Part shown: positions 1,029 through 38,048 of the stretch, piece after piece
How positions within the stretch are numbered: position 1 is the first letter of the stretch
How the letters are laid out: each line of letters starts with the position of its first letter
Assembly (NCBI GenBank): GCA_029204225.1
Contig: CM055099.1
Span: 68,715,549-68,779,548 of the forward strand
DNA from: Diphasiastrum complanatum
Lineage: Eukaryota; Streptophyta; Lycopodiopsida; Lycopodiales; Lycopodiaceae
Length of the DNA: 64,000 nt
Direction: 5' to 3'
Notes under the pieces: model-generated
The model's database searches: none
What the model saw: only the letters and a program-made list of their open reading frames with translations
Told to the model about the DNA's origin: nothing
Program-made: the position numbers and the translations under genes

Positions 1029-4000
1029 ATGGCATCTATAAATGCATATCTTTTGGATACTAATGAAAGGCTCAACAAAACTAACTATTCCATATGGAAA
1101 GTTAGAATGGAATCTATCATGATCATGCAAGATCTGATGGAAATTGTAAATGGTAAGGAGGGTGAACCTATTCATCCTCAAGAAAAAGCCAAATACATCA
1201 AGAGGTGCAATGTTGCACTACATTGCATAAAAATGAATGTTGCAAATGAACTCTTAAGAGAGGTAGGAGATTGCACTTCAGCTCAAGATGCTTGGGAGAC
1301 TTTGCAAAAGGTCTATGAATCCAAGAACCAAACTAGAATGTTAGCTTTGAAGAATCAAATCTATAGAAGCTATCAAAAGAAAGGAGAGAGTGCACATACT
1401 TTTGTCCTAAGAGTAAAGGAATTGAACAAAGAGCTAGCCTTTATAGGTGACCCTATCAAGGATGAAGAGCTTGTTCAACTCATATTGAATGGACTAAGCT
1501 TTGAATTTGACAATTTGGTTCAGGGATATGCAATTATGGGTAAGCTACCCATACTTGAAGAACTCCAAGGCACACTCATGGCCGAGGAATCAAGAAGGAG
1601 CCAAATGCAAGAGAGGATGGATAGGCTTTCCATCCAAGGTGGAGATGACCAAGCTCTCTTCACCAAAGGCAAAGGCAAGTCCAAAGGCAAAGGATCAACA
1701 TTCAAGAAGTCTACAAAGCTTGAGGATCAAGAAGGACCCCCAAAGGCATCTCCATCAACCACCAAAGTCAAGAAGGACAAATCAAAGGTGAAGTGCTACT
1801 ATTGTAGCAAGATGGGGCATTATGCCTCGGAATGCTTCAAGAGGAAGCAAGATCAAAGCCAAGCCAACATGAGCAAAGAGGAGGAGGAGGAGAGTTCACA
1901 TGAGGACTCTCTCATGATGTCCATATTTTCTTCAACAAGCTTCAAAGGAGAAGATCCTTGGTGGATTGACTCGGGTGCTAGTTCACACATGACTAGTAAA
2001 AGGGAGTTTTTCTCTTCTCTCTTATCTTATGATGGACCTATAAAGTCTATCTATATAGCAAATGATGAAGCTTGTAAGATTGAAGGAGCTGGTAGCATTC
2101 CCCTTTGCTTAGGATCTTCCAAAAAGATCAACATAGAAGGTGTTTTCTACATTCCTACAATAACAAAGAATCTACTAAGTGTTGGCCAAATGGTAGACAA
2201 TGGTTTCAATGTTGACTTTGCTTCAAATGAATGTTTTATCAAGAAGAAGGGTAAGATAGTGGCTAAGGGCACTAGACTTGGCAAACTTTATAAGCTAGAT
2301 GCATTTGTGGATACTAATGTTGTCATGTTGGCCGAGAAGAGCAAGATATCTACCTTTACTTTATGGCACAAAAGACTTGGACATGTCAACTCGGGTTCCA
2401 TGGAGGCTATGATCAAGGAGGAGTATGCTTTAGGCCTACCAAGGTCTATTGGGAAGGAAGACAAGGTTTGTGAAGCTTGTGCCTTATCCAAGGCACATAA
2501 GAAGGTGTTTCCTAACTCCATCACAAAGTCATCTCATCCTCTTGAACTCATACACTCGGATGTGCACATTGCTAGCACCAAATCTAATGGAGGTTCATCC
2601 ATGTTTTTAACCTTCATTGATGACTACTCAAGATATTGTTGGGTGTTCTTACTTTCTTTCAAGTCTCAAGTATTTTATACTTTTGTAAAGTTCAAGTTGT
2701 TTGTGGAAAAGCATCATAATCATAGCATCAAGATTCTTAGAAGTGACAATGGTGGAGAATTCATCTCCAATGAGTTCAAGGCCTTTTGTGAGGAGGAAGG
2801 GATCAAGAAAGAGACTTCTTGTCCTTACACTCCTCAACAAAATGGAGTTGCTGAAAGAAGGAATAGAACATTATGTGAATGTTCTAAGGCTTTAAGATTA
2901 GATGCTTGTTTGCCCAAATCCTTTTGGGGTGAGTCTCTTGTATGTGCAAACTACTTGATGAATAGGGTGTCTTGCAAAGCAATTGAAGGCAAAATTCCTT
3001 ATGAGATGTTGTATGGAAAGAAACCCAATCTTAATCACTTGAAAGTTTTTGGGTGTATATGTTATGTGCATGTGCCATTGGAAACAAGAGCCAAGGAGGA
3101 TCCATCTTCCACAAGAGGGATCATGCTTGGATATGCAAGCTCAAGCAAGGGCTACAAAGTCTATCTCCCATCCTTGAACAAATTTGTTGTTTCAAGGGAT
3201 GTCATCTTTGATGAACATCATATGCATATGCTTGAAGAAGGCTCAAGTGCTCCAACAATCAAGAAGAAGATGGCCGAGGAGCAAGATCTTGGTTTTGAGG
3301 AGGAGCTCATGGAGGAGCAAGCACCAAACCCACCTATCACACCAAGGAGATCTTCAAGGGCAAAAGTGGAGCCATCAAGGCTCACATATCAAGGCAAAGG
3401 ACAGCAAGTTGAGGGTATCTCATCCACTTCTTATGCTTTATCTAGTTTTGAAGAACCGTCTAATGTTGAAGATGCATTGAACTCCAAAGAATGGTATAAA
3501 GCTATGTTGGATGAGTATGATGCCTTGATTGAGAATGAAACTTGGTTGCTTGTTGAGAGACCTCAAAGGAATGTAATAGGATGCAAGTGGGTCTTCAAGC
3601 TTAAGTTGAATGCAAATGGGAGTGTTAACAAACATAAAACAAGATTAGTTGCAAAAGGTTATGCTCAAGAGAGAGGGATAGACTATGAGGAAACTTTTGC
3701 ACCCGTGGCCAAGATGGTCACAATAAGACTAATCATTGCACTTGCATCACATTTTGGATGGATTCTATGTCAAATGGATGTCTCTAATGCTTTCTTGAAT
3801 GGTTTTTTGGAAGAGGATATCTATATGGAGCAGCCACAAGGGTTCATCAAGCATGGAATGGAGAACAAAGTATGCCATCTCCAAAGAAGCATCTATGGCT
3901 TGAAGCAAGCCTCGAGATCTTGGAATTCAAGACTACATTGCTATCTTATTTCACTTTCTTTTGTTCAAAGTGAATATGATCCCACTCTTTACATTAAGTT

Positions 4001-4987
4001 TGATGATGTTGGTATTGTACTTTTACTCATTTATGTAGATGACATCATCATTAGTGGAAATAGTGTTGATGGTATTGAAAAAGTCAAGATAGATCTATCC
4101 TTAGAGTTCAAGATGGTAGATCTAGGGTGTCTTCACTTCATCTTAGGCATAGAAGTACTTAGAGGGTCTGATTTTATCTTTATAAGTCAAGTAAACTATG
4201 CTCAAAGTCTTTTGAAGAATTTAAGATGGAACTATGCAAAAGTGTTGACACACCAATGGAGCAAGATGTAAAAGTGCCAAATGAAGATGATGAAAGATCC
4301 TTCATGGACATCACTTTGTTTAGGCAACTTATAGGTTCCTTAATGTGGATCACTATAACTAGACCAGATCTTAGCTTTAGTGTATGTAGGTTGAGCCAAT
4401 CCATGCAAAAGCCATTGAATATCCATTGGAAAAAGGCTAAGAGGATTCTAAGATACATCTCGGATACATTGGATTTTGGGATTCTATATAGAGGAGATGT
4501 GATTAACCTTCATGCATTTAGTGATTCAAATTTTGCAGGGGACAAGAGGGATAGGAAATCAACAAGTGCCTATTCAATTTTCATAGGAGAAGGTGTGGTT
4601 TCATGGCTTTCAAAAAAGCAAGAAACTATATCTCTATCTTCAACCGAGGCCGAGTACAAAGCTTTGACAACCACTACAAAGGAGGTACTTTGGATCAAGA
4701 GATTATTGGTGGAACTAAAGATCATGGATTCAGAGGAGGCACCAATCATCTACAATGACAATATATCAGCCCAACACCTTGCATCTAACCCAATCTTCCA
4801 TGCAAGATCTAAGCACATTGAGATATGCCATCACTAAATGGTGCAAGCCAAGGAGATTGCTTTGGAGCATGTTCCAAGCAATGAATGTGTAGCTGATCTA
4901 CTTACTAAACCACTTCAAAAGACACCTTTTATGAAGTTCAGATCATCACTTGGAGTGATTAGTAAAGCAATGATTGAACCAAGCTAG
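1029..4987 (+). pseudogene. copia gag-pol polyprotein, one frameshift and one stop
   Basis: The first frame (1029-4271, 1080 aa) holds, in order, a gag domain, a CCHC zinc knuckle (CYYCSKMGHYASEC, about residue 256), the protease motif DSGASSHM (about 314), the integrase HHCC zinc domain (HKRLGH about 447, CEAC about 481), integrase catalytic Asp residues (SDVH about 511, SDNGGEF about 572) with the PQQNGVAERR block, and RT with YVDD at about 1002. Near 4217-4226 the frame shifts by one base. RNase H continues at 4226-4837 with SDSNFAGD and SSTEAEYKAL. A TAA at 4835-4837 then interrupts the conserved C-terminus, which runs on in frame to 4987. Everything else is intact. The protein would be cleaved by its own protease in cytoplasmic particles. 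Confidence 0.93.
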
Positions 4988-5001: not shown

Positions 5002-5683
5002 TGTTAAAAATTCACAATTCTAGCTTGACTAGTTTTGGTCATATGACTTGTAAATAGTTAGATGGTCATGATGTGGCTTGTCACACGTGCCAAATAGCAT
5101 AGGATTCCATTCATAAGGATGTTCTCAAGTAGACCTAAGTGTTAGAACCTTTGGAATGAGTCCAAATTATGCTTAGATACAAGGGAGAAAAAATAGGAGC
5201 TATTTTTGGTAATTTTTGCATTGTTGAGGGATCTCCAAGATTCCAACCCTAACTTGGTAGGGATGAAAGATCCACCAAAATTAGCATTAGGGATAGGTTT
5301 AGGGCTACTCATACCTGCCCAAAACCGTGATGGATCATGTATATATAGGTGATGATATCTCACCAAAATCAATCAAGCAATTTCATGATTTTTCTCTCAT
5401 AATGGTGCAATTGCTCTCTATGTTCATAATTGTTTGAGTACTTGTGATTACTAATGATTATAGGATTGAATGTAGGTCTGGTGTACAGTACTCAGACTGT
5501 GGGAGGCCGTACTTTCACACGTGTGAAGCCTTCTTCAAGGATTTGGGCCATTTAGTGAGGTTCAAGCATAGATTTTTGATGGATTTTGATGGTTCAACTT
5601 GTGCTAATCTTATGAAATCATAATCTATTGTTTCCCTCATCATTTCAAGTGTTTTAGGATCCTTATTTGCTGTAATTTTTACA
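5002..5683 (+). repeat. 3' LTR, 682 bp
   Basis: It starts TGTTAAAAATTC and ends GTAATTTTTACA. It holds two CACACGTG-type palindromes (near 5082 and 5515). TATATATAG near 5339 may be the TATA element of the U3 promoter. Confidence 0.93.
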
Positions 5684-7454
5684 GTTATGAGATATAGATC
5701 CGGATCCCTCAATGGTATCTCATAAATTCCAAATCAGAAACCCGTAAGAACTATTTCTCTTTTATTTTAAAACCTCTACTTTTTAGAAATTTCTTAAATA
5801 CAAGACAATTGGATTGAGATTCGTATAATGCCTTCCAGTGTAGAACTAGGTTCTGAAAGACTGTTTAAGTAATATGAATTCATGCTAAGAGTAGGTGATT
5901 AACATAGACATATAATCAAGTATTGTGTTTGACAATTACTGGCAGAGTTAACAGATCTGTTCTCATAGATCTATTGGTTAGCTTAAAAGTGATTTGGATA
6001 TGGATCTAAATGTGGTGTTATACTAGTATAATTGAATTTTTCATCTAGACATTTAAGATTTCTAAATCATGAGCAATTTACTTGAGTAGTTGATTTACTC
6101 ATGTGGAAGTTAATTGGTAAAACGGACAGTGTAAAGAGCATTCACCGAAACTGTTGGTTTTGTGTGTATTGATTATAAGACACATAATTTATGAGTCATT
6201 CAGATTCATTAAATTGTGTGCATAGGATACTTATTTCTTAGATAAGTATTTCTCAGTTGAGAAATAGACGTTATTCATTAGTGATAGTATCCCAGTAAGC
6301 TCAATTGGATACCGGATCCTAATGGTTCCAAGAATGTTAAACTGAATTTTGGGAATTCAGCAGAACTTTGTAATCTCTAGACGTTGTTCTAGGAGATTGT
6401 ATAAAGTTTATATTGTTAGAGATGAATGTTATAATAGTCTTTATTTACTTGGCTGATTGTTGAATTTGGAACTCATAATCTGGTAGAGAATCGGATTGGA
6501 AGAATATTCTTGAGATCCAGTATTTTTCCTTGTGGGAAAGATTTCAGAATGATTCTTATATTTCCTGAGTTGTATGTTGTACATATACTCCAATATCTTT
6601 TAGTGATTAAGTATGGTATTAGAATCATGAGAATTATGATTGATGAATCATAAGATTCTAAATGTTTATGATTGACGGATCATAAATTGATACTTAAAGG
6701 TCATTTGAAGATTATAAGAAAATGTGAAGATTCTTAAGATAATGAGTAATTCTTGATCAAATGGGTGAGTCAAGGATTTAGATCTGTTATTTGAACTCTA
6801 AATTCCTTTACTCCAATGCATACTTGAGATTGTATGAATCTCACAGGCCTTTCCATTAAGTAATTGTTCACTTATGAGGAATTGCTTTCTTTACAGATTG
6901 ACAATGTAGTCTATAAGTGCTTGTGTACAAAGTTCAGTCTAAATCTCCAGTTTTGTAGGAGACATATAAATCTATTAAGATACGGATAGATGCTGATTTC
7001 TTGCATATGATGCTAGAAATGGGGCTGTTAACTCATTAGAGTAACTGCAATACTCTGGTTTGAGTTATGATTGTCTGAGACTTGATGGATCTCCTTAGAT
7101 GACTGAATTGTGGTATTTTAGAATATTTGAATATTCAAAAAATATTTGTACCAAGAAGCATTATTTTCTACAATAAATTGAAATGGAATTTCTTTAAATT
7201 TTGGATTTGATCTCTGAAATAAAGAGGTTAATTCACCTAGTGGTTCATGTAATTAGGATTACATGAAGGTGATGAACTTTGTTTTGGAGTAGATCAACCC
7301 ATTTGGAGGATTTATAGTTCAGTGTATCTTTTGGAATTTGAGTTAGTATTCAAGAGTAGGAGCAAGCAATTGAAATATTGTTGCATCTTTGAGTACTTAT
7401 TCAAATGGAAAGATCGGACTAAAAATAATGATTCATAGATAAGATTTGCAAGAT
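5684..7454. other. AT-rich interval without recognisable genes
   Basis: About 1.8 kb with no long open frame, no RNA gene and no LTR boundary that I can recognise. It separates the young copia element from the multi-gene block. Confidence 0.6.
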
Positions 7455-7500
7455 TCATTATAGGAGTTTTGAGCACCAAAAGGGTCTTTTGTCAAGATGC
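7455..7500 (+). repeat. candidate left terminal inverted repeat
   Basis: Bases 7455-7500 resemble the reverse complement of 16951-16995. Both share TCATTA-AGGAGTT followed by CCAAAAGGG at the same spacing: about 24 of the first 30 positions match by eye, fewer further in. The true outer end is uncertain, and both sites could instead be tails of old retroelements. Confidence 0.35.
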
Positions 7501-7872
7501 TGTTTTTGACTTTTCAACTATTCGACGTACATTGGCCCAGTTATATATTTACACCTGTGAAAGACCGTAACGTTGTTGCCGGTCGATTTCTTTTTTGGAA
7601 CTTTCCGGTCATATTTCTATACAATTCAAAACTCCCGTCGGGTAGGGTCCTGACTTGTGATTGGACCGTAATTGCTGCTCGTGAGTTTTCGAAGTGCTTG
7701 GGACCTAAACTTGTGGTTAAAGTAAATCTATTTTGATCTAACCATAGTTAGACTAACATATATGATTTACGAAAGACCACCAACATTTATTACAAATTTG
7801 ATAATTTATTTTCATACTGATTTAACTATATTTTGTTTCAGACTCTGTTGTTCATCTTCTTTTAGCTTTGCA

Positions 7873-9270
7873 ATGGCTTCCGAAAGCCGTAGACCACGAA
7901 GCAATATTGTATCAGTTTCTGTTTGTAATGAAAAAGACTCTGATGGCTCTTGGATACCACGTATCTATAGAAAATTTCATTGGGTTCTCATGCATCCCTC
8001 CTCAAGAGGTGTTTTTGGTAAAAAGAGAAAATCAAATATGGTTATAGGAATTTTTGGAAAGGTAGAATTTTAGACTTCAAAGTTTCACCCGGTGGTCGAT
8101 CCATTTCAGAGGTCTTGATTTAACATGTCTACATGCATAAGGAAATTAGAGTGGAAGGCATAAGTTCAAATGACAGACTCAAATACAATTGTAAGTTTTG
8201 GAGAATTTTTTGCTTTGAGCTTTGCATTAATCATTTAGACGTGTATCTGAGTATTTGAATGACATATAGTTTTATGGATTTGTGCAGATTTGTATCCATC
8301 AAACATAATCGAATGGCAACCTATACAATCCCTTGTCGACATCATGGACATTATTCATTCTGATATTGATCTTCTGCAATACAAGAACCACTCCACGAGA
8401 TCACTTTTGGATTCTTGTATTTTCTTCTATGATTCATTTTACACACCATCCAGTTTAGGAGGAAAATTAGAGACGATATCATTACCCTCTTTCTCAAGCG
8501 AAGAATGGATTCCTCCATATTCCCCCATAGCAGAGAGCTTCCGATCAAGGTTTCTTATGGACATTCAAAACTGTATGAAATATAGCACAGGTTCAAAAAA
8601 TAATAGATTGCACTGGTTTTTGCCTATTGCAATTTTTGTTGAATGTAATATTCGTAAAACAGTGACAATGTTTATTTGTAGTGATTTAACAGACAATATG
8701 TTATCAAGCCTCCTTGATGATCATTGGGATAAAAAGAGGAATGGCAATATCGAGTGCATAGTTAATAGATCGTCAATGAAATTTAGATATCTTATAGAAA
8801 AACAAGTGCTTTCTTTAACATTTTATTATAGAAGATGGTCCAAAGTTGGCAACGGATGGAAGCATTGGATCAGGATTTTACAGTGAATCATCAAGATCAA
8901 ATAGAAATTCAAGTGAGGAAAAATAATTCTACTCTTACAACAATTGAGGTGGAAGAAGATTGGACACTCGATCACATTCGATCAGAGCTTACATTGCTGC
9001 AATATGATATTCCTAAACACTTCTGTTTTTGAGTCAACGAGAGATTGGTAGGTGTATGTGTATTTATTCCAGTACACATTTGAAATGACTTTCAATAATT
9101 TTATTTGAACATGTTTTAGTGTTTTCGGTATTGCAATATTTCATTTGACATAATCTCAATGTTGATATTGTTTAACAAGTTTCTTTGATGTACAGGTAAG
9201 GCCAAGACAAGAAAGTCGCATAGAGTGCAAGGACTTAAATAGAAGCATAGAAATTGTTGAAACCACATAA
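7873..9270 (+). pseudogene. ubiquitin-like-domain protein gene, three exons, decayed
   Basis: Proposed exons are 7873-8190, 8288-9047 and 9196-9270, with introns GTAAGT...GCAG and GTAGGT...ACAG whose phases agree. The start MASESRRPRS follows a pyrimidine-rich leader. The middle, including SLLDDHWDKKRNG, is of no family I recognise. The C-terminal part (about 8900-9270) reads IEIQVRKNNSTLTTIEVEED, then a helix-like segment and FCF-stop-VNERL, and resembles a ubiquitin-like fold (beta hairpin, helix, strand). Damage: a frameshift near 8061, TAA at 8121-8123, a frame change near 8835 and TGA at 9030-9032. It converges on the H3-Ulp1 gene with 250 bp between the two ends. The ubiquitin-like call rests on pattern only; it could equally be a PB1-like domain. 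Confidence 0.5.
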
Positions 9271-9520: not shown

Positions 9521-11349
9521 TTACATTTCAATCAAAGGTGCCTGAGGCATATCCTCGAGCACTGTAACCTCATCCACGGATCCTCTGGCAGGTTCATCCG
9601 AGGCACCTTCATGCTTGTAGGGCCTTGCACATGATAGTAAAATTTCCAGCATTTCATGCCGATACTGATGAATCGCATTTGTTGATACCTCAGGATATTG
9701 GAACTGCAAAAAAAAATATCGAGTGTATGTATGTATTAGCCAATGTTTTAAAATATATAAATTCACAAAGTTAACAATATATCATCAGAATACTGGAACA
9801 TTGAAAAAAATACCTCACGGATACTAGCATCTGGAGGTTGCACCATATACCAATCCAAGAACGATTTACCATCCGCAGCTAAAAGCATAAAAAAAAATCA
9901 CAACGAAAAGTTGTTAAAGTATAATTCAATATATTTCTAAACTACATGCCATCATGCAAATAAAATACGTAAAAAGATTCCTTTTACCTTTGCATCAACA
10001 ACCTCTATGTTGGTATTTACAACCAACCCATCCGGCCTGGGCAATAGCCCCACCATCCTTTTGTACATGGATTTAATCATGGAATGGGTGGCATGCAAAG
10101 AATTCATTGTCATGCACACAAGTGTGCAGCTTCCAGTCGAATCCACTTTCATGGATATGATGTGCACACTCCAATGTTTGCTGCCAGAAAGAGACAAGCA
10201 ATGAATTACTAGAATCTATAAGAGTTTCCAAAAGAAAAATCTTACAGAAAACAGATATTACAAGAAGAAACTATCTTACTTTGAACAGTATGGGATAATG
10301 AACATTGATGCCTCTTTGCTGGTGTGCCTGAAGAGCCTTCTGGCTTTCCTCTCTTTATTCAACAGATGCCCAAAAAATGGAGATACAACAAAAATCTCCT
10401 TCGTGACTGTATATGTATATTTATGTAGATAGTATGCACAAGCAGATTCAACTACTGTGTCTGAGATATATGAGGTCTTTTCTTTTAGCTCCCTACAATG
10501 CGGGTCTTTGATATGCATTGCAAAATTAATATCGTCTATACAGAACATAAACTCCCCTCCGAGATCATCTATTTTCTTGGCTATATACAGGTCAAAATCA
10601 ATGTACCTCTCAGAATAAAAAAATGTGTCTTTAGGTTCATTCGGAAGTCTGATATGCAACTCTTTATCAGTTGCATCAACATCAGAAACAATCATGTCTA
10701 CCACTGTATTTAGGTCATCCTCATGTATAGAAGGAGAATCGTGTTATTGAAGATCAGGGGTTACGGGAGGACTCTCAACTAGTGGAATTGCGGATGTACT
10801 AGCCAGATCTTTTCTAATGGGAGGAGGTGAGGGTGAAGAGCTGGGAGACCTGGGCTTGGGTTGCGAACGCTTGGGCTGTGCTTGCTTTCTCTTTTTGCGG
10901 GGTGGGACAGGCCCTTTTTCAAGAGGAACTTGCCTCTGTGTGAATCCTGACTTAAAAATGCTGTCATAGGTGTTTCAAAGCCTCATGACAAGAAGCATGT
11001 CCTTGGGCATCAGTGTCACCCTCTTGCCATGAATGGAGCACATCATCAAATCCTCAAACAATTTTGTCTAGAAATCCTCGTATGCAGTATGGAGGGCCTC
11101 CAATGCAGTGATATTCCACCTCACTGCATAGGGCAGATGGGTGGTCATGTCTTGTGTAACCTCTCTCATAGCCCAATAGAAGGCTGCTTTCGGGATCAGA
11201 AGTTTGCTGCTCCTCTGCAAGGCCCTGATGTCCCTCAACCATGGACAACTAGGTCTACCGCATCTTTGCGAACGTACGGGTTTAGATGTCTGGGGACGGG
11301 ACGGATGAAAGAAACTGGTAAGCCTAGCGGTTTGTTTCATCCAAGCCAT
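9521..11349 (-). pseudogene. histone H3-Ulp1-like protease fusion, four exons, three in-frame stops
   Basis: Proposed exons (minus) are 11349-10280, 10180-9969, 9878-9814 and 9703-9521, together exactly 510 codons. Residues 1-124 are histone H3-like: the tail keeps K4 and QTAR (AWMKQTAR against ARTKQTAR), followed by LRDIRALQRSSKLLI, MREVTQDM, ALEALHTAYEDF and CSIHGKRVTLMPKD, each aligning with H3 core helices. A basic Pro/Ser-rich linker with PPRKKRKQAQPKR looks like a bipartite nuclear signal. From about residue 216 a Ulp1/SENP (C48) protease-like domain follows, with the catalytic His in KHWSVHII. The usual Asp position reads MNSL, and the Cys box is replaced by VQPPDASIRE, so catalysis is doubtful. 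Stops are TAG 11068-11070, TGA 10975-10977 and TAA 10744-10746, all in one otherwise open frame. It could be two adjacent genes, but the shared frame and exon argue for a fusion. Confidence 0.72.
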
Positions 11350-11358
11350 TGAGGCCGA

Positions 11359-11573
11359 ATATCTATACTACGCGAGGATAGAGACACAACAGAAGAGACA
11401 CTGAGAACTCTAACCGTGATATCGCTACGACGTGAGAGAGTGGTAGAGTCAGGCGGGGAGAGGCAGGGGCTCACGTGATGGCGATATTGAGGAAGTCAAG
11501 CTGATATCGCTACAACACGAGAGGGTGTAAGGAATGGGCATGGAGAGGAGGTCGCTCGTGTGATGGCGATATC
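11359..11573. repeat. ATATCGC-TA-ACRCGAG motif block, left side
   Basis: Related 17-19 bp motifs lie at 11359-11376 (degenerate), 11418-11436 (+), 11470-11487 (-), 11503-11521 (+) and 11555-11573 (-). The consensus is about GATATCGCYAYNACRYGAG, in alternating orientation. Confidence 0.75.
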
Positions 11574-11689
11574 ACGAATGCATTTCGTATGGATGCAATC
11601 AAACGTGCTAGCAAATTATGCGAAAACCTGTACAATCCCCGAGAATGGACTTATAGGGGAGAAAAATTGGCACTTGTGAATACCAGTGA

Positions 11690-12048
11690 CATGTGGCCCA
11701 GTCAATAGCTGACATGTGGAACTACACGTCTGTATACGCACGTGTGAAACTGCACGTCTGGATCAACACGTGTGGGAAACCACGTGGAGACACGTGGCCA
11801 AATGGATCAGTGACATGTGTTCTTGCACGTATAGGCTCACACATGTGGTCACGTGGCCCAATCAGTACCTGACGTGTGGGACCTACACCTCTATATCCGC
11901 ACGTGTGAAACTTGCACGTGTGTCCACGTGGTCCAATGGTTTAGTGACATGTGTTCTGGCACGTGTGATCTTGCACGTATGGGCACATGGGCGAATGGCA
12001 GATTGACGTGTATTGTAGCACGTGTGATCTCACACGTGTGGACGGTTG
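11690..12048. repeat. CACGTG/ACATGTG (G-box/E-box) array with interspersed CCAAT
   Basis: About five degenerate units of 55-95 bp, each roughly CCAAT...TGACATGTG...GCACGTGTGA...CACGTGG. More than a dozen CACGTG or CATGTG hexamers occur in about 360 bp. bZIP and bHLH factors bind such sites; whether they do so here is inference. Confidence 0.8.
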
Positions 12049-12214
12049 TACTACGCGCCATAGATCTGATCTGTTGTTGGATCGACGAGTGTACGGCTTG
12101 GATTTTCTTGGTTTTAGCTAAATAAATTTTGTTTGATCAGTTAAAACATTTTGCTAAGTTTTGGATTTTCACTCCCTGTATCTCACAGTGTGTGAACAGT
12201 TCTTTTTATTTGCA

Positions 12215-12365
12215 GTATCGCTACCATGCGAGAATCTTTCAAAGATTCTAGACGATCTAAGATCCCTCGCATCATTCCGATATCAGGTCATTCGCCAATA
12301 TCGCCATCACGCGAGGAAGTCCTGATTGTCTTTTAACTCCCTGCCACCCCGCGTCGTAGCGATAC
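12215..12365. repeat. ATATCGC-TA-ACRCGAG motif block, right side
   Basis: The same motif family as 11359-11573 recurs at 12215-12232 (+), 12266-12284 (-, degenerate), 12297-12315 (+) and 12349-12365 (-), ending 26 bp before the SAM-like start codon. Confidence 0.75.
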
Positions 12366-12391
12366 TCAACCATATTGGTCATACTTTCTAG

Positions 12392-13523
12392 ATGGCCGCG
12401 TCATCCTCTAATACTTTTGATTCTGCTTTGCACGCCTTCCTCGTTGAATCCGGTGTTGGTAACTACATAGGTCACTATAAGACGTATTTCAATATGTCTT
12501 TTGATATTGAGAGGTTTGGATCAGAACATAAATCATATTTTCCAGTGTTGTATAAGGAGTATTATGAAAGTCTGAATCAGTCTATGTTGATCATGGATAA
12601 TCTACGATTCATCCATTTCCATGACCTAGTACTTGCCCAACCATCTTCAAAGCAAAGCCACGACCAACGATTCACAAAAATCGTGAGTGATTTTAAACGT
12701 GTGGTCAAAGAATTCGAGGACTTCACAAATCTCGACGGTGATGATGATCTACGTGCTTCTATTGATTACAAAGACGGAGATGAATGGATGGATGGGACTG
12801 AAGCACTGTAGTCAATCATGTTTGAAAGCAGGGCATACCAGGCAAATTTGCCCAATGAGGAGGAATTTCTGAAAATCCAGAGCATATATGTGTCACAGTC
12901 TTTGGAAACTAGTCCATCCAGTGCTTCGACGACCATTGTTGCTGGTCATGATCTACATACTGCTGCACTTATTGAAGCTGATGAGCGTGATCTGGTAGGT
13001 AAATTTGGTTTTATCTTAATGAGATTTTTATTCAAATATAGTCATTTTGTTTTACAAGACATGTGACCTTTGCTCATATTTACAAGCTACTGTTGAGGTG
13101 GATGCCTTTGCAACAAGGCAAGGATATTTGAGAGAAGGTCAGGGATCACAACAAAGGGATTCATCCCTATCCAATTATTTGAAGTGCTTTGTAAATAAAG
13201 AGATTTGCATTCATCATAGCAAATTTTCTTCAGATGCTGCGACAATAATAATGGCAATTAAAGTGTTATCCTATTTCTCGAATGGGCATAAATACCCTCC
13301 GAATACATATAAAATTATTTTTGTGAAGAGAGACATTGCCATAAAAGTGTTTGGCTATGTAGCTGAGGAAGTTCTGAAAAGGTCTTCCTCCTTAGCTATT
13401 TTCTCTGGATACATTGACTTGAGCAAAAGAAGATCGATTGATTTTCTAGATCCATATGATAAAAAAAAATTTCTTCATGACCACACAGCAAAGCTGATCA
13501 TTAAAGACAAAGAGAAACAATGA
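12392..13523 (+). pseudogene. SAM-like-domain protein gene, two exons, one in-frame stop
   Basis: Exons 12392-12998 and 13087-13523 join across an AG|GTAAAT...TACAAG| intron with matching phase and total exactly 348 codons. The N-terminus (about residues 8-75, with LHAFLVESGVGNYIGHYKTY) resembles a sterile alpha motif protein-interaction domain. An acidic region containing DGDDDL follows. The C-terminal half (about 200-347) has alternating hydrophobic segments such as TIIMAIKVLSYFSNGHKYPP and is of no family I recognise. A TAG at 12809-12811 breaks the frame, which stays open on both sides. It diverges from the H3-Ulp1 gene and converges on the candidate transposase with about 70 bp between the ends. 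The gene model is firmer than the SAM assignment. Confidence 0.55.
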
Positions 13524-13596: not shown

Positions 13597-16304
13597 CTAT
13601 GGGTTGACTCTTGCATCAATATTATTTTCGTCTACAAATTTGCACGCCTTTCTGAATTTCTGATAATTTGTTGATATAGTTTTATATCGGATTTGAATAC
13701 GCTTGTAGAACCATTGAAATAGCTGGATGATGTAACTATTTTTTTGAGATGTTCCACCGTGTTGTGTATTTTGATGAAATGCTGCTCTGGCTTGCCAATG
13801 CGATTTTTCCATTCCTTGTGATGACCAAATACTTAGACTGCCATAAGCTTTTGCAAAAAATGATGCATGATGTCGTGAAATGTGCTGCAATATCAGAGAT
13901 ACAAATATTGTCATATTAATCATTTTAAATTTAGCATATGTGCAATGAGATTATAAATCAAAGAGTTAGTTATATTGAAAAGAGATTTACCATATAATGC
14001 ATAATATGATCTTCACCCCAGACGTCTTTAACTGCATCCACAAACTAAATTGTTGATTTCTCAATTAGTAGGACATCAGTATCAGATAGTTTATTTTTTC
14101 TGAGCAATTTGACCATGCTGTCAAGCTTTGTCCAGACTTCAACTTTTTTAATCCTCGTTGTTCCTTTTTCTTCAAAATCCTTTGTGGCATTGAGTACATC
14201 TATCCAAATTGAGTACTGGACTTTAGTTGGTTTTCCAGAATGATTTGATAATAAACGACGAGCTTTGGATCCTCCTATACTTGGTTTGCATGGGATGTTT
14301 CCTGTTTTTCCTTAAAGCTTCTCATCCTTTTGTATTTTAGCGTGTCCTTTATGAAGTCCCGCTTTTGATAAAACTTCTTCCAATCGAGCTATTGCCTTTT
14401 TGGCTAATGACTCTGGCTTAATATTCCAAGCAAACCAAATATGAAGCTATATCAATTTTTCGATATTCTAACCTCTCCATGTAGTGTACAAATGTGAACA
14501 TTTTTAAGCAGAATCGGTAATACTGGTTTCCAAGTCGGATCTTCTATATCCCTTGAAACTCTCGTGCTCTTCGACATGTCATGTGTAATTTTCATGCAAT
14601 AGAGGCATGGATTTTTTGAATTTGCTCCATGTGAGACGTGGAACAAGCATTTCAACGACTTCAGGTCTCCAGCCAAATGCCATTCCACCTTAAATTCACC
14701 TATTCCAAGAACATTGAGTGGTGTGTCGCTCATATGATTCTTAATTATCTCTGGATATTCTGTTTTACTAAAAATCCAAAATAGAATGTCCTGATCTTCT
14801 TTTAAAACGTAAAATCATGAACTAATTTAGGAGAATTGAACTCAGACCTATAATAACAGAACAATATTAACTTAAAACACAAAACCATTAATTCTTGAAA
14901 TGAATTAGTTGCTAGTACTCAATAGAATAGATTTAAACCTGGAAAGCTGCCAACCACCAAATATTATTTTCGGACTGCACACTGAAATCAAGACTCTCCG
15001 AGTTTATCGTATTGCTTAATGCTCCATTCATAATTGTAACACTAACCCTTTCCAGCTTTTGTCCCTTTATTACTTCTGATTCATCTAACTTGAGAACTAA
15101 TATCAATTTTTCAACACTTTCATTTGTGATTCCATAAAACTTTACAATAAATCTCAGTAAATGATTCAGATCTACAAACATATTGTTGGTATAATCACAT
15201 GACAAAGTGCCATGTTTTGAGTTATAAATTTCATTTATATGGTAAGGAATACCAATGATGTTTTGCAAATCCTTGTTTAACACATCCCTCTCTAATTTGA
15301 TTTGAAAGGGCCGAGGAATAGGAAATTTTTTTATATGTACTTGTCCAAATGCCTCTTTGATAATTTTAAACATTGTGTCATATGCATCCCTGCTAATACC
15401 AGAATAATCACATGCCCCTTGTATCAATTTTCGGTCAATGATCTTGCCGACTTCGCCCATAAGGGCCTCTGCAATCTTGGACTTGATTTGAGAATATCGT
15501 TGATTTCCAAGTAGACTCGTTGTTGACTTGGCTGTAAGTACTACACTCAAAGACTTTCCAATCATGTCCTTGTCTTTCAGATTTTCATTGGTGACTAAAG
15601 CTAATCTACAAAAGAAAAATAAGATTTAGAAAAAAAACAATTCACAACCATTGAGTGCTAGATGAAACAAAACACATGAATAGTTTAAAACATAATCTTA
15701 CTTGAAAGCATATATTCTTTTTTTCCGTTGGCCCCCACTTGTTGAAAGCTCATCAATACTTTTTAAAATAACTCTTTTTTGCTTATTGTTCAGTATTTTC
15801 TTCCGTAATGTGTTTACTTCTACATGTATTTGACAATATGAGGTACGCAATGTTTGTACAATTAGTTTCATATTGTTGGTTGAGGTTTAATATAATATCT
15901 TGCAAACGAGAATTATCTATCTTCAAGATTTCATTCTCTTCTTTTGTTTGCAAAAAAATAGTTCCTCTTTCTCGGTAGTCAGTAAGCAAACCATTCAACA
16001 TATTTTCCAAACAATGGATTTTTTTCATTGAATTTCTAATGCCATAACTTTTCAATCTTTCACAATAACCCAATAGACCATTGTGTCCTTCACACAAAAA
16101 CAGTATGAGTTGTGTGATCGATCTAAAATTTGGATGTTGCATTGAGCTTGGATCAATTGGATACAAACTTCCATCAACCCATAGATCACAATGTTTCCTG
16201 TCTTCCGTCCTTTGGTGAGCTGAAAAGGTGGATCCTTTCAGATTTTTTCTCGACAGTGGAGCATATTCTGTGGGAAGATCAATATGGAGATGATATTTAG
16301 ACAT
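13597..16304 (-). pseudogene. candidate DDE-type transposase, four exons, decayed
   Basis: Proposed exons (minus) are 16304-15702, 15605-14939, about 14767-13991 and 13884-13597, roughly 775 codons. Exon 1 ends in a coiled coil (EENEILKIDNSRLQDIILNL), with a frameshift near 15850. The core contains three acidic blocks spaced as in DDE transposases: LVLKLDESEVIKG, WHLAGDLKSLKCLF followed by a zinc-type CLYC motif with nearby His, and GMEKSHWQ near the C-terminus. Gene fragments with GDLK...CxxC...E order are common in eukaryotic transposases, but I cannot assign a superfamily. A frameshift near 14458 is followed by stops at 14447-14449, 14312-14314 and 14045-14047 in an otherwise open frame. 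The exon 2-3 junction phase does not fit cleanly, so that splice site is uncertain. Confidence 0.5.
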
Positions 16305-16400
16305 CTTAATAATCGATAGATTAATCTAGTAGAAAACCAACTTGTTATATATCTTGTAAGCTATTAAAACTCGTCTTAATTAAAAAAAAAAAATTCATTG

Positions 16401-16656
16401 AAAAAGTTTGAAATGACCTTGGCGCTCTTTTTGATCCATCACACTCCATATTTCTTGCTTGATATGCAAAATCAATGCTTCGCAGTTATGAGCAAAATAA
16501 GCAAAATATTTTTTCAATAGATGTGTGTTGAAATCGCAAATTTTTGAATTGCAAAAGTTTGAAATAACCTTACCACTCAATTTGATCCAACACACTCCGT
16601 ATTTTCAAAATTGCAAAAATTTAGATTCACGTTGGCGCTCATTGTGATCCAAAATA
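16401..16656 (+). repeat. subterminal direct repeats upstream of the candidate transposase
   Basis: Three related units (16401-16453, 16552-16604 and a weaker 16613-16656) share AAAGTTTGAAAT-ACCTT and TTTGATCCA-CACACTCC. They lie between the transposase start and the candidate right terminus, where transposase-binding repeats are common in DNA transposons. Confidence 0.6.
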
Positions 16657-16950
16657 TTCAAAGTTTCTTACCATGATTTTCAGATCGATAAGACTGTTTT
16701 TCATTGATGTGAACGCTTTGAGTAGATGAAAAGAAAACTCTGATGTGCAATACGATTTGCATTTACATGAGAAGTTATGTTAGTTAATGGTAGAAAATAG
16801 AATCTTGAAGTATGGACCCCACGCATTGCGGCTACCCAACTTCCAGTTAACTACATACGTTACTAGTGAGGTCAAGTCATCGAAGTTGTGTGGGCAAACC
16901 AAAAACTCGGTCGGAGTTTTAAAATCCGACGATTTTTTCTCTCTTACGTG

Positions 16951-16995
16951 GCATTTCTTAAACAGCCCTTTTGGGCCTTGGAACTCCTGTAATGA
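16951..16995 (-). repeat. candidate right terminal inverted repeat
   Basis: It is the inverted partner of 7455-7500. A gypsy-like purine tract and LTR start begin about 50 bp further right, so the block may have inserted next to, or into, an older gypsy element. Confidence 0.35.
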
Positions 16996-17048
16996 AGGAA
17001 TAATTTCATGTTTTCTTTTTCCCGTTCTGAGGACAGAACCTATTTAAG

Positions 17049-17520
17049 AGAGGAAGAATGTTACGGCCATATTCGGTTAAGGACCTAGAATAATCCTAAT
17101 ATGGTAGTCCGGCCCTCCAGTATTCGAGATTATTGGTCACGCCTGGATTTTATTCCACATCGTGGCCTGTTGGGGACTAATGACCTTGAGAGGACCCAGA
17201 CACTCTAATTGAGACATATGGAGTAGTGCATGTACGTGTGACTGATATAGGCAGGAGGTATGCATGAAGAGTTGTGACCTATTTATAGTTGACCTGCATG
17301 GGAATTGCATGTGCTCATGCACACGATCCTACTCTCCATATATTGAGGTACTGATTATTCCGTTGACGACTTGGTCTAGGTTACCTGATGAGCTCTTCTC
17401 CTCTTGATGTCACATTGGCATGGCTTGGGGGCTAGATCCAGGAGGATTCTCCAGGAGGGATCCAGGTTTGGTTGGGTGGTTTTGCTCCACAGTCTCTCTT
17501 GTGTTTTCCTATCCTCATCT
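17049..17520 (+). repeat. purine tract and probable gypsy LTR fragment
   Basis: AGAGGAAGAA (17049-17058) precedes TGTTACGGCC, the layout of a 3' LTR. The far end is not resolved: the sequence runs into reverse transcriptase at about 17530, so the LTR is truncated or rearranged. Confidence 0.45.
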
Positions 17521-19822: not shown

Positions 19823-21493
19823 TCACTTTGTAAAGCCTTGACTGCAGATATTAGTAGTCCCATTTCCAGAGGCACTCTGAGTTTCCGTTCTTTCCATTCC
19901 ACTTCCACCCATATCAATTTCATGAAGAGGCGTTGCAGGCGCATGCCCTACAAAGAGCCCTACATGTCCTAGAAGCTTGTCTTTCCTAGAGAAGGTGGTA
20001 CCACATGAACATTGCCATTTGTCACGTCCACAATGTTTTTCATGCGTCTTTAGATCTGCAGCCACAGAAAACTTTTTGGTCCTGCACTTGGTACATGTGA
20101 GCATCTTTGGGCAATGACTTCTTCTGTAGTGATTTTTCACACACAGCATCGTCTTCAAAGGAAGAAATTTTCTATGGTTTTTGTTCCTTTTGCAACCAAG
20201 ATATGGGCAAGAATATCTTCTTGGCTTTCTTAATGATGGGTCCTGGGAGGACTTATCTGGTTTTGTGAGAGCTGCAACCGTCTTATACTCATCTCCATGG
20301 CCCCTCATGTGCATTCTCAAGTTTGCGTCCCTCTTGAAACCTTTTCCACATATTTCACAAAAGTGAGTATGCTCTGCTAGAATCTCAATGGCTTCTAATT
20401 CAATCAACTCATAAGAACCAGGAGGTAAATTCTCAGCTTCTCCATCATCTTCATCTTCCTTATAGACACCTCCAGAATCCTGATCTTTTGAAGATGAATT
20501 AATCTCCATTGAAATGCTCGACACGAAAGGATTTCCAACACATAGAGCTATATTTTCTTCCTCAAGGTTGATAGTCCCATCCCCACTTGTACCTAAACTG
20601 ACAGCAAAAGAACCTACAAGAGAGTTGCCAGCAGTAGTTTCAAGCGAGCTTCGAATGGTGCAGCTTGAAGCATGGCCTCCATGTGCTTCAAACAACTGCC
20701 TACCAATCTCTGGTGATCCATCTAATCTAGTCTTGACTACAACGGATTCAACCCCTGAGTTGTTTTCTCTTCCTCGATCTACAGAGGAATTGAATCTACC
20801 GTTGCCAGCAGAGATTCCGAAAGCAGTCCCAAGTGAACTCGGAGGTCCATTGTACTGAAAGAAAGCCATGTCTGGTGAGGATGTTGATCCAAAGTGACTC
20901 CTCTGATCGGACAGAGGATGCTGAAATTGTTGATGTACTTGTGGCAGCCACCCTGCAGCTGCTGTTACCAACTGAGAAATAACTGTTGCAATTCCTGCGG
21001 CTGTTGTCATCTGCTGTTGGGTTGCAGAAGCATTGGACATATCCCCTTGCGCAATGAGCTGCACAAGTGTCTGCAAGTGCCCTATTTTCTGCTGGAGAAG
21101 CAAGAGTGTCGTCATGAGTGCTTGTGAGGAAGCATCAGCCACCGGTGAGGGGGCCCTTGCTGATTCCTGCAACCCGTGCACCAATTGGGCACTCAAAATG
21201 GGACCGGAACTGCCCATACCAAAATCCACGAGCTGGTGAAGGCTTATCGGTTTACTAGCAGCATTTGAACCTACGAGTCCTTGGGGCTGTTGACGGGATT
21301 GCGGGATAAGGTTTTGACCAGCAGCCTGTGCATGAGAATGAGATAGAGATGCACCACTGAAACTAAGGCCAGTGGAATCAGAAGGTTGCTGGTTATGCTG
21401 AAAGGAACTATAAGTCGTAAGCTGCTCACCCAAGAAGGAGAACTTGGAGGCATCGCCGCCATCAGAAGAGTATCTAGAGGTAGAAGGATTCAT
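19823..21493 (-). CDS. STOP1: STOP1-like C2H2 zinc-finger transcription factor
   Basis: An intact, intronless 556-aa frame. The N-terminal half is Ser/Gln/Gly-rich with a helix-rich stretch ([20 protein letters not shown]) typical of this family. The C-terminal half holds four fingers: [21 protein letters not shown]; a long CPYLGC...H finger with [41 protein letters not shown]; and [20 protein letters not shown]. This arrangement defines SENSITIVE TO PROTON RHIZOTOXICITY 1, a nuclear regulator of acid- and aluminium-tolerance genes such as malate transporters. An acidic patch ([15 protein letters not shown]) precedes the fingers. Family members are usually near 500 aa, so the length fits. It is the only clearly intact host gene in the window. 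Whether it is STOP1 itself or a STOP2-like paralogue cannot be settled here. Confidence 0.93.
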
Positions 21494-23110
21494 CTTTCAA
21501 ATCGTGAGAGTTTCTTCAAAGTAACTGCGCACGCACAGCAGTTCAAACTTCAAACGAGTGGGGGCGAGGCCTTGTACAGCGAAATGGCGGATACCACAGA
21601 AACAAGATCTGGAGATTACTACATGTGAAATAGCATATGAATGCCTTGATTGCCAGTAAAACGGAAGTTAGAGGCATCCAAGTTGTAACAGAGTTTCGAA
21701 GAGGAGTACGATTTACAATTTAGATTATTGAACTAGCTAGCTTGCAAAGATCCCACGAGCAAAAGTAGCGAAAACCAACCCCTGGAATAATTGTCAGATT
21801 TCTTTTCCCTCTGATAAACTTGATTAGAAAACAAACATTAGCATGCGCTTCCTCTAAGCTTGTGGTCATATACTACTAGAAAAAAGGACTGAAGAGATTA
21901 TCTAAGGGGTCTTTTTCTTCCTTGATCTGGATTTCTATGATTAAGAATGATTCGCGGTCAGATTTGAGTATGTTTTTGGCACAAACAGACAATATCAGCC
22001 AATCTGACTAAATCACAAAGCCCACCTCCTTATCTACCCACTGACCTTACATAGCTGGCATGAATGGACAATGATGAATAAACGGCCTCCGCAATATGGT
22101 GGAAAAGTTGTCTCAATGGATCCTGTCACAACCAAAAGAACCTTTACCAGGTCTCAAGAATGCTACAACAGCCAGTCATTCAAGCCCCTCCATCTAGATT
22201 CGAGATCAGAGACTTCAGTCACGACCATACTTCTTCTTCCAAGTCCTATGAATCACAGGTTCCGATCCACGATAAGGAACCTCATGATCCCCCTAACACC
22301 ACGCTAAAGGATCCAAGCAGCATATTAATCATTTGTTACAGACATCCACGAATTCATAAGAAAGAAAGAATGCATGGATAGTTTTGATCTAATAGAACCA
22401 AGCGAACGAGGTGAAAGATACTAGACAGAGGGTCTCTTCGCAATCATGACTATACTTCTTCCTCTAAATCCTACAATCCACAGGATCCAAGCAGAATGAT
22501 AATCATGTACTACAGAAGTCCATGAAAACAAAGGAACAAAGTATGCATGGATAGTTTCGTTCTCATAAAACCAAGTCAACAAGATGAAATTGCATAGTAA
22601 ACAAAACGTTTCTTCGCAGTCACAATCATTCACCTTCTTACTCCAAATCCTACAATCCACAGTATCTCCAATCCATGATAAGGTACCTCATACACGACCC
22701 TAACCAAGTAACATGACAATCACTTGTTACAGACGTGCACGAAAGTAATCAAAGTGAGTAAGTCGTCCAATCCCCACTATTTAGGACAGAATCAATTGCA
22801 ACGCAGTAACAGCCACCTTGCAGCTGAAAATGATGATAAGCAAAAAAAACCAGGGCACTGAGGGCAGTATTAAGTAAGAGACGAGGTGGGTACTGGGTCC
22901 ATTGCCCGTTGGTAAGCGGAAATGATCGCTGAAGGCCAAATACGCACAAAAAGTTGTCGTCTTGGAGGTTCATGGATCCATGATACAAGCGGAGAGAATT
23001 ATTGTCCAGTTTGGGACGCCCCAAAAGGTGAACACTAAAAAGGCATCTGTGGACGATCTGGACGGCCGTCCGCCGTCGAGGGAGAGAGAGCGAGAGCACG
23101 CAGCTCTGAC
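21494..23110 (-). promoter_or_regulatory. 5' region of the STOP1-like gene
   Basis: No coding frame is credible here. On the minus strand a CT-rich stretch (complement of GAGGGAGAGAGAGCGAGAG, about 23078-23096) looks like a plant 5' leader. The transcript may therefore start near 23.1 kb, with an intron or long leader before the ATG at 21493. The splice sites are not resolved. Confidence 0.4.
22211..22745 (+). repeat. degenerate tandem repeat, about three units of 130-225 bp
   Basis: Units begin near 22211, 22437 and 22619. They share TCTTCGCA-TCA, CTTCTTCCTC-AAATCCTA, CAATCCACAG, GGATCCAAGCAG, TTACAGA and ATGCATGGATAGTTT. The units differ by indels, so the duplication is old. Confidence 0.7.
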
Positions 23111-33730: not shown

Positions 33731-36190
33731 TCATTTGAAAAGCAAGTCATAAGGTTGTTGATTGCCTAACATCAAGTTCAATAGCCTCATCATCCACAGA
33801 TGGGCATCATCTCCTAATCTTTGTACACACACAAGAAAACTCCTAAAATTAGGATCCTCCTCAGTTATTCTTGTGATGGACTCTGGATACACCGGCAAGG
33901 ACATGTGCTTAGCAATACAACACATGTTAATAACTAGTACATGCAAGACAAGTAGAATGTAATATTTCAATTGTGAAACTAGAAAACAAAAAATGTACCA
34001 ACCCAAGGGTATCGAGAAGGTGTGAACCTCATCTCCAAGGATATCATCCTCGTCTACCAATGGCATGTCAAGCTTTCCTTTCCCTACATCTTTTAGTGGC
34101 ATGAGATACTCTTGCACCAAAACACCATCATAATCAAGAGACAAGCAAGGCCTACATGACTGCCTAGCTGCCTTTATAACTACACCAATCCTGCATTCCA
34201 AATCAATAATAGTTCCTCTTGGAGGACAGAGATACTACATGAGAAACAACATAAATGGTGTAGAATTCTCTAGGGTGCCTCCATGGCTCTTTTGTACTTT
34301 TATTAATAGCTTGTTCACAATTGGGAAGATGATGACAAAGTACTTCACTCTCCACAATCAAATTCAACATGCTACTAATTTCTTAGAGGAGATCTTAAAT
34401 GTGTGTGGGCAAGAATTTTTCCTATGGAGGAGAAAAATCACAAGGATATCCATCTACAACAAAACAAGACATAAGATTGTGTAAGAAAATGTATAAAAAC
34501 TATAGTATGAGAAGTACAGACAAGAACTTAGAAATTGTCACCTTGATCTTGGTGTCCACGGTTTGTGACATTCTCCGAATGGGCTCATGCCAATCACAAC
34601 AAACCTTCGAGAAATGGTCAACAGACCCATAGCCTTGGCATGCTGTTCTACTACACTCACAAATCCAAACTTGCAAAAAGAATGACCCATCCAAAATCAT
34701 CTACAAGTGCAGATGACAATCCCAAAGAATACAATGAGTGATCATCTATCATGACATTCCATGATGGAATCTTTTCACAAACTCCAATCACACCATGTCT
34801 AGTGGAAATATCAATACATATTACATTTACAAACCATGCACATGTTGAATTTCACACGTGGGGGAATGCCACAAAAGTGTGATTTTGATCTCCTAAGACT
34901 TTGGCACATAGATCACACATAGATTGAAAATCAAGATCTATTCCATAAATCGAAGTCCATAAATCTAAGGCAAGAGCACATTACACCATGCATAAATCAT
35001 CAAGACAAGTAGATTCACACATGTGGATGCTTGTACAACTGAAAAACTAAGTGTGGAACTGCCCTCCTCTCAAGTAGAGAGAGAATCCAACTGAGAAAAC
35101 TCAACTAGAGAGAGAAACTCGAGATTGATCAGAATAGTGTAGAAATCTCATAACTCCAAAAACTTACAATACAAATGAATTGATGCTCATATATATAGGT
35201 GCTTGAGCTAGAGGGGAGTGAAACATGATTGGACCCCTTTTTTACCTCCTCTAAATCCTATTGGTTGAGTGACATATAGGCCCTGGATCATGATTGGACC
35301 ATTTTGATAGATTTCTAGCTTTTTATTGATGACCAACTCTCATGCCAACATATGGAGATGTGTCACTCACCAAATGTAATCTTGACACATGTAAGTAGCC
35401 TAACCGAACTCGGGCTACATCACTTTTGACTTTTGGCCTAATCATAACTTGACATGTGTACTTGCACAAATTGCCTCTAATGCCAAAAATGGCCTAATCA
35501 ACAACTAACATGTGTATGGTCTCTACTAAAGTTTGAGTACCCCTAGATTAACATGAATAACATGATTTTGACTATTTTACACATGTGGGAACATGATCCA
35601 CACGTGTGAGATTTTCACATGAGCTAGAAATATAAAATAACCAAGCTAGATTTTGCCAAATTTTCACAGCACAATCCATGCCTTTTCTTTTGCATCCCCT
35701 TGAAATATTGTGCTTGAAAAACTCTCTAATTGCTTGAAATTCATGCATATCTGTCCTACCCTTCTCAACCAAGCTATTGAGTGATATATAATCACAAACC
35801 AAGATTTCCAACTCTTTAGTAGGCTATGAATGCCAATATTGTGGAACGATAGACTCCAAAGATATATATACAACATCAAAAATACATTTATGTATCTTAC
35901 TCTCTCGTGCACTTATGCCAAGCAAGTCAAACACTTTAATATTGTCCCCTTCACCAACATCTAACAAGTGAACCAACACCAAAAGACAATTAGAGCTCAT
36001 ATTTCAAAGAAAAACATGATACTATTAAAATCAATTCAAATGCAAAGTTCAAGAAGTGTGCAAAACAAGAACAAACATAAAAACTCACCAAGGTTTATCA
36101 TTCTCCTCTTTTTTGGTCTACCAAGTTGTCCTTTTCTTGTTTCTTGAGGCACATTGTCCACTAGCTCTTGTTGGCTACTTTGCTATTATC
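33731..36190 (-). pseudogene. decayed multi-exon gene of unknown family, split by an LTR
   Basis: Minus-strand segments that look coding: about 36185-36090 (QETRKGQLGRPKKRR, basic, ending at a GTGAGT donor); about 35990-35640 (DNIKVFDLLGISARESKIHK, then LNSLVEKGRTDMHEFQAIRE, with one stop); about 34842-34680 (VICIDISTRHGVIGVCEKIP); and 34201-33731 (CRPCLSLDYDGVLVQEYLMP, then a probable intron, then SITRITEEDPNFRSFLVCVQ). The order and strand are consistent across the LTR at 34843-35619, suggesting the LTR inserted into a pre-existing gene or transposon. I recognise no family. A DNA-transposon protein is possible. Confidence 0.4.
34843..35619 (-). repeat. copia LTR, about 777 bp, reverse orientation, probably solo
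   Basis: Read on the minus strand it starts TGTGAAAATCTCACACG and ends GAAATTCAACA. Its 3' part matches, in inverted orientation, the LTR fragment 37506-37817. No primer site or coding tail abuts it, so it looks like a solo LTR. No clear target duplication was found. Confidence 0.7.
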
Positions 36191-36199
36191 ATCAGAAAA

Positions 36200-36670
36200 G
36201 GAGCTTTCCGAAAGTAGTATACCACTCTTGTTCCTTTTCATAAAAAAAAATTTCCTCATCATAGTGTGTTGCCGTTATGTATACATACATGTGACAATTA
36301 TAACAATTGTGAAGGCAACAAGCGTGAAGTAGCGCAGTTACTACAAAGTACTGAAATGAACTATGACGTGGTTTGCATCGTGGACAGGGCAGAGGAAGAG
36401 CTCCATTTTGAATGGTAACAGTAGACAATCGTCGCGACGATCGTCGAAGACGTTGAGCAAGTCGAGTCGACTGGCTCGCCCTTGAGAAGATGTCGATGTC
36501 GATGGAGTTGATATCAGGATGTCGACTAAGTCCATTTGGTGAAGTCAATGACATGAGCGTCGACTAAGTCGATCCTACTTCTGCTTCAAGTTGAGGTAGT
36601 GCACAGACGGTTTGACTTGTGCGAGTAAGACTGCATGTCGTTGTAGAGAGAGAATATTTACATTGTATAC
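36200..36670. other. CpG-rich patch with GTCGA motifs and palindromes
   Basis: In otherwise AT-rich DNA, 36425-36575 carries many GTCGA/TCGAC pentamers and the palindromes ATCGTCGCGACGAT and CGACGATCGTCG overlapping near 36428-36447. GTCGACTAAGTC occurs twice. No gene was recognised. Confidence 0.6.
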
Positions 36671-36676
36671 TTCAAC

Positions 36677-37817: not shown

Positions 37818-38048
37818 AGTCTTGGTATCCATTGCCAATGTAAGTAAAGTCCATTCCAATGCATTTAATTAAAAGGTAAATTATTTTGATTAATTCGTGG
37901 AATTAATTAAAATACAGGCTAATAAATGTACAGCCTATGCTTTGTGCTTGATTGATTGTGAAAACTTTCTAACTTACACTTTTTATATCAGAGTGTAGAT
38001 TAGTGCTACTAGAAGGGCGAACATATTGAAACTTATGCCATTTGTAAG

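Follow-up and report, generated by a model that had tools for sequence, protein, structure and literature searches.

The window, by which we mean the whole stretch of 64,000 nt of Diphasiastrum complanatum DNA that was analysed, contains on its minus strand, at positions 11349-9521, a pseudogene with a predicted model of 502 codons. Its ancestor appears to have carried, in one coding frame, a divergent histone H3 domain of the CENH3 type and a region related to the Ulp1/SENP proteases (peptidase C48), connected by a basic linker. We tentatively regard the locus as a dead gene copy that could stem from a multi-gene mobile element of clubmosses and that would have encoded a CENH3-like H3-linker-C48 protein. 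This is the reading we prefer, with a confidence that stays somewhat below even. Its parts differ in strength: that the two regions shared one coding frame in the ancestral gene is supported, while the origin from a mobile element, the nuclear targeting and an anti-silencing function are proposals built on the predicted domains and their surroundings.

Gene model and loss of the reading frame

The gene model, which was predicted from the DNA, consists of four exons, all on the minus strand, which are separated by GT-AG introns and splice together in frame, and in this respect the splicing proposed in the original prediction holds. Exon 1 (10280..11349) comprises the H3-like domain (codons 1-137), the basic linker PPRKKRKQAQPKR and the first part of the Ulp1/C48-like region. 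The core of that region, with NKHWSVHII and, placed by eye, MNSL, lies in exon 2 (9988..10180). Exon 3 (9819..9878), for which the choice of donor site is uncertain by 5 nt, contains RSWIGIW, which we read as occupying the position of the C48 motif DCG, and exon 4 (9521..9703) encodes the C-terminal part (YRHEMLEILL) and ends with a TAA stop. The spliced model measures 1506 nt, equivalent to 502 codons including the stop, instead of the 510 codons counted earlier.

The frame was originally read as continuous from the H3 tail to the protease-like domain. It is shared, in that a single exon and a single frame span the H3 domain and the linker and extend halfway into the Ulp1-like region, but it is not open: exon 1 carries an in-frame TAG at codon 94 (11068..11070, minus strand), a TGA at codon 125 (10975..10977, minus strand) and a TAA at codon 202 (10744..10746, minus strand). 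These three stops are few for a frame of 356 codons, as dinucleotide shuffles of the exon had 19.3 on average and none of 2000 had three or fewer. Within the first 138 codons there are two stops where 6.5 are expected, a number as low being found in 51 of 2000 shuffles, and the 218 codons after the H3 domain have a single stop against 12.9 expected, which was equalled in none of 2000 shuffles. On the latter count we reject a frame opened purely by accident behind the histone, and the depletion across exon 1 as a whole argues that coding sequence once continued through the H3 part into the Ulp1-like part.

The linker PPRKKRKQAQPKR is basic, of a proline/lysine type, and judged by eye it may have been a nuclear localisation signal. 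The window copy itself is a pseudogene, since it has three in-frame stops and has lost the catalytic Cys and Asp of the protease-like region. The CpG observed/expected ratio is 0.39 in exon 1 and 0.47 in the window, as compared to 1.02 in the adjoining region 11350-12391.

The histone H3 domain and its relatives

The H3 domain occupies 10939..11349 on the minus strand, from MAWMKQTAR to MRL*NTYDSIFKSGFT (the asterisk standing for a stop), and its assignment, based on Pfam, on a close relative and on a tree, bears out the original reading. The Pfam Histone profile (PF00125) gave 68.7 bits and an E-value of 6.9e-19, with a curated cut-off of 26.4. A sequence search of the PDB returned 174 distinct sequences at E<=0.001, and among the best 60 of these 174 the top matches were H3.3 and then cnp1 of fission yeast. 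When 5.8 billion proteins were searched with the H3 part, four matches at E<=1e-6 were obtained among 8 candidates. The best of them, P0006, is a hypothetical protein of 137 amino acids from the clubmoss D. complanatum, encoded on a 52-Mb contig, and it is identical to the window domain at 118 of 137 positions (86%) over its whole length. A chance resemblance to H3 is ruled out by this relative together with the Pfam E-value.

P0006 is intact at the positions of the first two stops of the window copy, where it has residues. Its tail begins MARTKQTAR like that of canonical H3, has leucine at position 9, and after K4 is free of lysine as far as residue 48; in the window copy there is one more lysine in the tail (KPVR). 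Of the tail that had been described as AWMKQTAR with K4 retained, the lysine is indeed kept in the intact relative, which differs in the letters before it. The annotation of P0006 comprises nothing beyond the H3 part, its end coinciding with the boundary between H3 and linker, where the window frame continues. This argues mildly against a fusion, or else P0006 is truncated or under-annotated. Between the two sequences there are 19 amino-acid differences, corresponding to 21 minimal base changes, of which 18 count as transitions if ties are broken in favour of transitions. Such a predominance of transitions would be expected of a silenced, methylated repeat.

Several characters distinguish the window domain from canonical H3 and are shared with CENH3/CENP-A: a loop 1 that is longer by four residues, an RW pair before helix 2, LLIPKAAF as in plant CENH3 (pattern LLIPxAxF), and RVTLM. 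In a maximum-likelihood tree of the H3 core, constructed from a small set of 16 sequences, in part of less certain accuracy, and having long branches, the window domain and P0006 fall with plant CENH3, CENP-A, cnp1 and Cse4 against canonical H3 (support 92). A node that unites the pair with two plant CENH3s, P0004, P0007 and P0008 has a support of 80, whereas the order inside it is poorly supported (28 and 51), the value of 28 applying to the grouping with the plant CENH3s themselves. Other characters are unlike CENH3. The tail of P0006 starts as in canonical H3 and then loses its lysines, and the window frame extends at its C-terminus into the linker and the protease-like region. Furthermore, core identity is no higher to CENH3 than to canonical H3, with nearly equal values of 39/85 for Arabidopsis CENH3 and 39/83 for H3.1, and the closest core apart from P0006 is that of P0001, on the canonical side of the tree (42/83). 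It is possible that the grouping with CENH3 reflects long-branch attraction. As judged from these comparisons, the domain is divergent and CENH3-like and no ordinary H3, and a CENH3-like ancestry is moderately supported.

The protease-like region

A Ulp1-like domain with KHWSVHII had been claimed. A match to a home-made profile speaks for it, and Pfam gave no C48 match to the region at E<=1 nor any at E<=10. By sequence, the PDB yielded no credible relative (one dynein chain, E 0.52); none of the 286 candidates from the protein search with the Ulp1-like region was a homologue at E<=10, and a search with the whole read-through protein produced only five matches among 3802 candidates, all of them histone proteins. 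An hhalign comparison of the single Ulp1-like sequence aligned the wrong region, with a probability of 0.6%. The home-made profile was built from SENP1, SENP2, Ulp1 and SENP8 and was run with filters off. It scored the region at 10.0 bits, a value reached by none of 10,000 composition shuffles (best 9.7), and placed it first of 281 sequences, the next score being 4.9; the other 280 were stop-to-stop ORFs of at least 60 amino acids from the window, mostly shorter than the query. Leaving out one protease at a time gave 11.4 bits without SENP1, 8.9 without SENP2, 8.9 without SENP8 and 2.7 without Ulp1. Since the score drops this far when the yeast Ulp1 is omitted, the C48 identity that the sequence suggests is supported only moderately. 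Thus, of the two domains, H3 is matched by a Pfam profile and the Ulp1-like one by the home-made profile only.

In the profile alignment SYISDTVVES falls on the WLND motif and FIIPYCSNKHWSVHII on the HW motif, and the later motifs were placed by eye. Among the columns that are invariant in the four known proteases, the window copy retains the Asp of WLND, the His, the Trp and the Ser of DS. The catalytic His is present (KHW, in NKHWSVHII). The position of the catalytic Asp reads Asn (in MNSL), and the catalytic Cys is missing, as WIG in RSWIGIW stands for DCG, both as placed by eye, so that of the His-Asp-Cys triad of C48 enzymes only the His is left. The region resembles SENP/Ulp1 in a weak profile match over the WLND-like and HW parts, and differs from this family in being undetected by Pfam and in lacking the catalytic Asp and Cys, without which the window copy could not be a protease. 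The original observation is partly confirmed, being correct for the most part as regards the ancestral gene and mistaken in taking the frame as open, and the interpretation given to it is partly supported.

Origin, possible function and known systems

Upstream of the H3 gene, the intergenic region 11350..12391 separates it from divergent frames and is occupied by CACGTG palindromes, diverged direct repeats (11690-12055) and, at both ends, TATCGC-containing repeats (11420-11566 and 12216-12359). Twelve of the 23 CACGTG sites of the window are located within these 1,042 nt. Shuffles of the region had 0.59 on average and 6 at most, and 12 was reached in none of 2000, although the sites are partly interdependent, since duplication of the repeats has in part copied them. 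In CpG, the array's 1-kb windows come 3rd and 4th among 253. This is only suggestive, because other stretches of the window are equally high and the ratio of the array drops to 0.80 when ACGTG/CACGT is masked; the high CpG content may reflect just the motif or an ordinary promoter.

The divergent frames themselves (12392..13523, plus strand), perhaps two exons at 12392-12811 and 13023-13523, possibly belong to the same element. As in the decayed frames at 13597..16325 (minus strand) and the frames at 7.5-9.0 kb (plus strand), no Pfam family above cut-off was found in them. The frames at 13597..16325 look transposase-like by eye only (HLAGDLK..CLYC, GSLSIWSSQGMEKSH). At E<=1 Pfam detected neither a MULE transposase domain nor one of any other transposase in 12 neighbouring frames between 7.4 and 16.4 kb, frames that are decayed and were scanned with the same method that missed the C48-like region. 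The best candidate for a terminal inverted repeat, 7453-7500 / 16950-16998, is not significant (equalled by 49 of 500 random segments), and by eye no target-site duplication was seen beside it. Rfam at gathering cut-offs and tRNA scans found nothing in the window. Because Pfam names no family in the flanking frames and the terminal repeat candidate is not significant, the mobile element is something that we infer.

The wider surroundings, read by eye, are retrotransposon-rich DNA in which other decayed frames adjoin the locus. Three stretches are rich in CpG: 7251-8000 surrounds the beginning of the frames at 7.5-9.0 kb (plus strand), 11251-12750 lies between the divergent frames, and 16251-17250 is located upstream of the frames at 13.6-16.3 kb (minus strand). 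A single multi-gene element might have used them as its three promoters. A young LTR retrotransposon is marked by direct repeats (1-227 and 5467-5692) that are 98.7% identical and flank a polyprotein at 1029-4268 (plus strand), read from its frame by eye as Copia-type. At 34840-37820, two inverted copies of a repeat (about 330 nt, 83% identical) enclose about 2.3 kb with fragments that look Copia-like by eye. An open frame of 556 amino acids at 19829-21496 (minus strand) has C2H2 zinc fingers like those of STOP proteins (PF23115, E 1.3e-17; PF23118, E 2.5e-17) and represents a common kind of plant gene, for a transcription factor of the STOP type.

The alternative that has to be taken most seriously, and that we nevertheless consider rather unlikely, is that a stand-alone pseudogene of a CENH3-like H3 variant is followed by a frame that was never fused to it, being in register by chance or belonging to a separate gene. 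It would explain why P0006 is intact, begins as canonical H3 does and ends at 137 amino acids where the linker begins, as well as the failure of Pfam and of the protein search to find anything related to the Ulp1 half. It does not agree with the near absence of stops in the 218 codons past the histone, which belong to the same model exon, nor with a C48 profile score above those of all 10,000 shuffles. If a fusion is accepted, it may have been a host clubmoss gene for an H3-variant fusion that died in this genome, with no mobile element involved. The lack of significant terminal repeats and of any matched transposase family in the 12 frames scanned would fit such a gene, as would the fact that P0006 is encoded on a 52-Mb contig in a clubmoss whose genome has been sequenced. 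We consider this unlikely in view of the retrotransposon-rich DNA and the decayed frames beside the locus, and of the mostly transitional differences to P0006.

Two further explanations have very little probability. Some large DNA viruses are reported to encode histones, and an integrated giant virus with an H3-like gene might have left a fragment here; this is highly improbable, as GT-AG introns interrupt the gene model, the closest relative comes from a plant, and a search of viral contigs with the H3 part and one neighbouring frame gave 12 and 4 pattern matches and no tblastn relative. The original interpretation went further and suggested a deconjugating enzyme placed in chromatin by its H3 part. 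The splice-consistent exons and the conserved KHW motif speak for an H3-guided SUMO protease that is active today. Such an enzyme is contradicted by the three premature stops and by a triad reduced to its His, and short of stop readthrough combined with a non-protease role it is hardly conceivable.

According to the preferred reading, a dead copy of a gene from a mobile element, the encoded protein would have begun with a CENH3-like H3 fold, its tail nearly devoid of lysine, continued through a basic linker and ended in a domain of the Ulp1/SENP type. Its most likely function would be that the H3 domain held an activity for removing SUMO, or for a related deconjugation, on the chromatin of the element or close to it. 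Through its H3 part the protein may have entered the nucleosomes of the element, its tail not being open to methylation at K9, and the protease may have removed SUMO-type marks. The tethered activity would have opposed silencing that depends on SUMO and on K9 methylation, and the intergenic motif array could be the target or promoter region that was kept unmethylated. With later decay, the window copy would have lost its frame and two of its three catalytic residues. We regard as quite improbable the more specific proposal that an element-encoded CENH3-type H3, devoid of tail lysines except K4 and hence without K9, and fused to a SUMO-family protease, acted against silencing by replacing the host histone at the element; it would be a self-encoded nucleosome subunit that is not methylatable at K9 and carries an eraser of silencing marks. 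If true, the joining of Ulp1 to a CENH3-like histone whose tail is poor in lysine would direct attention to chromatin and to the SUMO/H3K9 silencing pathway, and would provide a case of a selfish element that encodes its own nucleosome subunit. Judged by title and the opening of the abstract, no description of an H3-Ulp1 fusion was found among the matches listed in a literature search that reached few subscription journals and preprint servers.

Histone domains at one end of a larger protein are also present in P0004 and P0005 of Haematococcus lacustris (799 and 847 amino acids) and in the related P0002 and P0003 (835 and 819 amino acids, on short contigs). In P0002-P0004 the H3 lies, as in the window gene, on the CENH3 side of the tree, which did not include P0005. 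They differ in that their H3 is C-terminal, with a very long loop 1 and after a large unknown domain in P0002 and P0003, and in that no C48 domain was detected in P0002-P0004 (P0005 being outside the scan). In P0004, whose H3 is CENH3-like, Pfam recognized only Histone and a weak DUF6964. The N-terminal part of P0004 and P0005 has the look of a TnpB/Fanzor-type nuclease, and these proteins possibly represent a second, independent capture of a histone by a mobile element.

Among known systems, the VANDAL transposons of Arabidopsis, which are non-TIR MULEs, offer one of the closest comparisons. VANC proteins are described to bind tandem motif arrays in the non-coding DNA of their own elements and to strip silencing (PMC5735166, PMC10398659), and some VANC genes (KIU) are described in a review to carry a Ulp1 domain (PMC13317346). 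According to the same review, the exact role that Ulp1 plays there is not known (PMC13317346). Why transposons acquire such domains is a question on which the proposed fusion would bear. The locus studied here likewise has a Ulp1-like region and, at 11350-12391, a tandem motif array in non-coding DNA. It differs from KIU/VANC in that no MULE or other transposase domain was recognized by Pfam in the frames scanned, that the N-terminal partner is a histone H3, and that the host is a clubmoss instead of a eudicot. By analogy with the VANC proteins, sequence-specific binding and demethylation of the array would be putative activities of the clubmoss protein.
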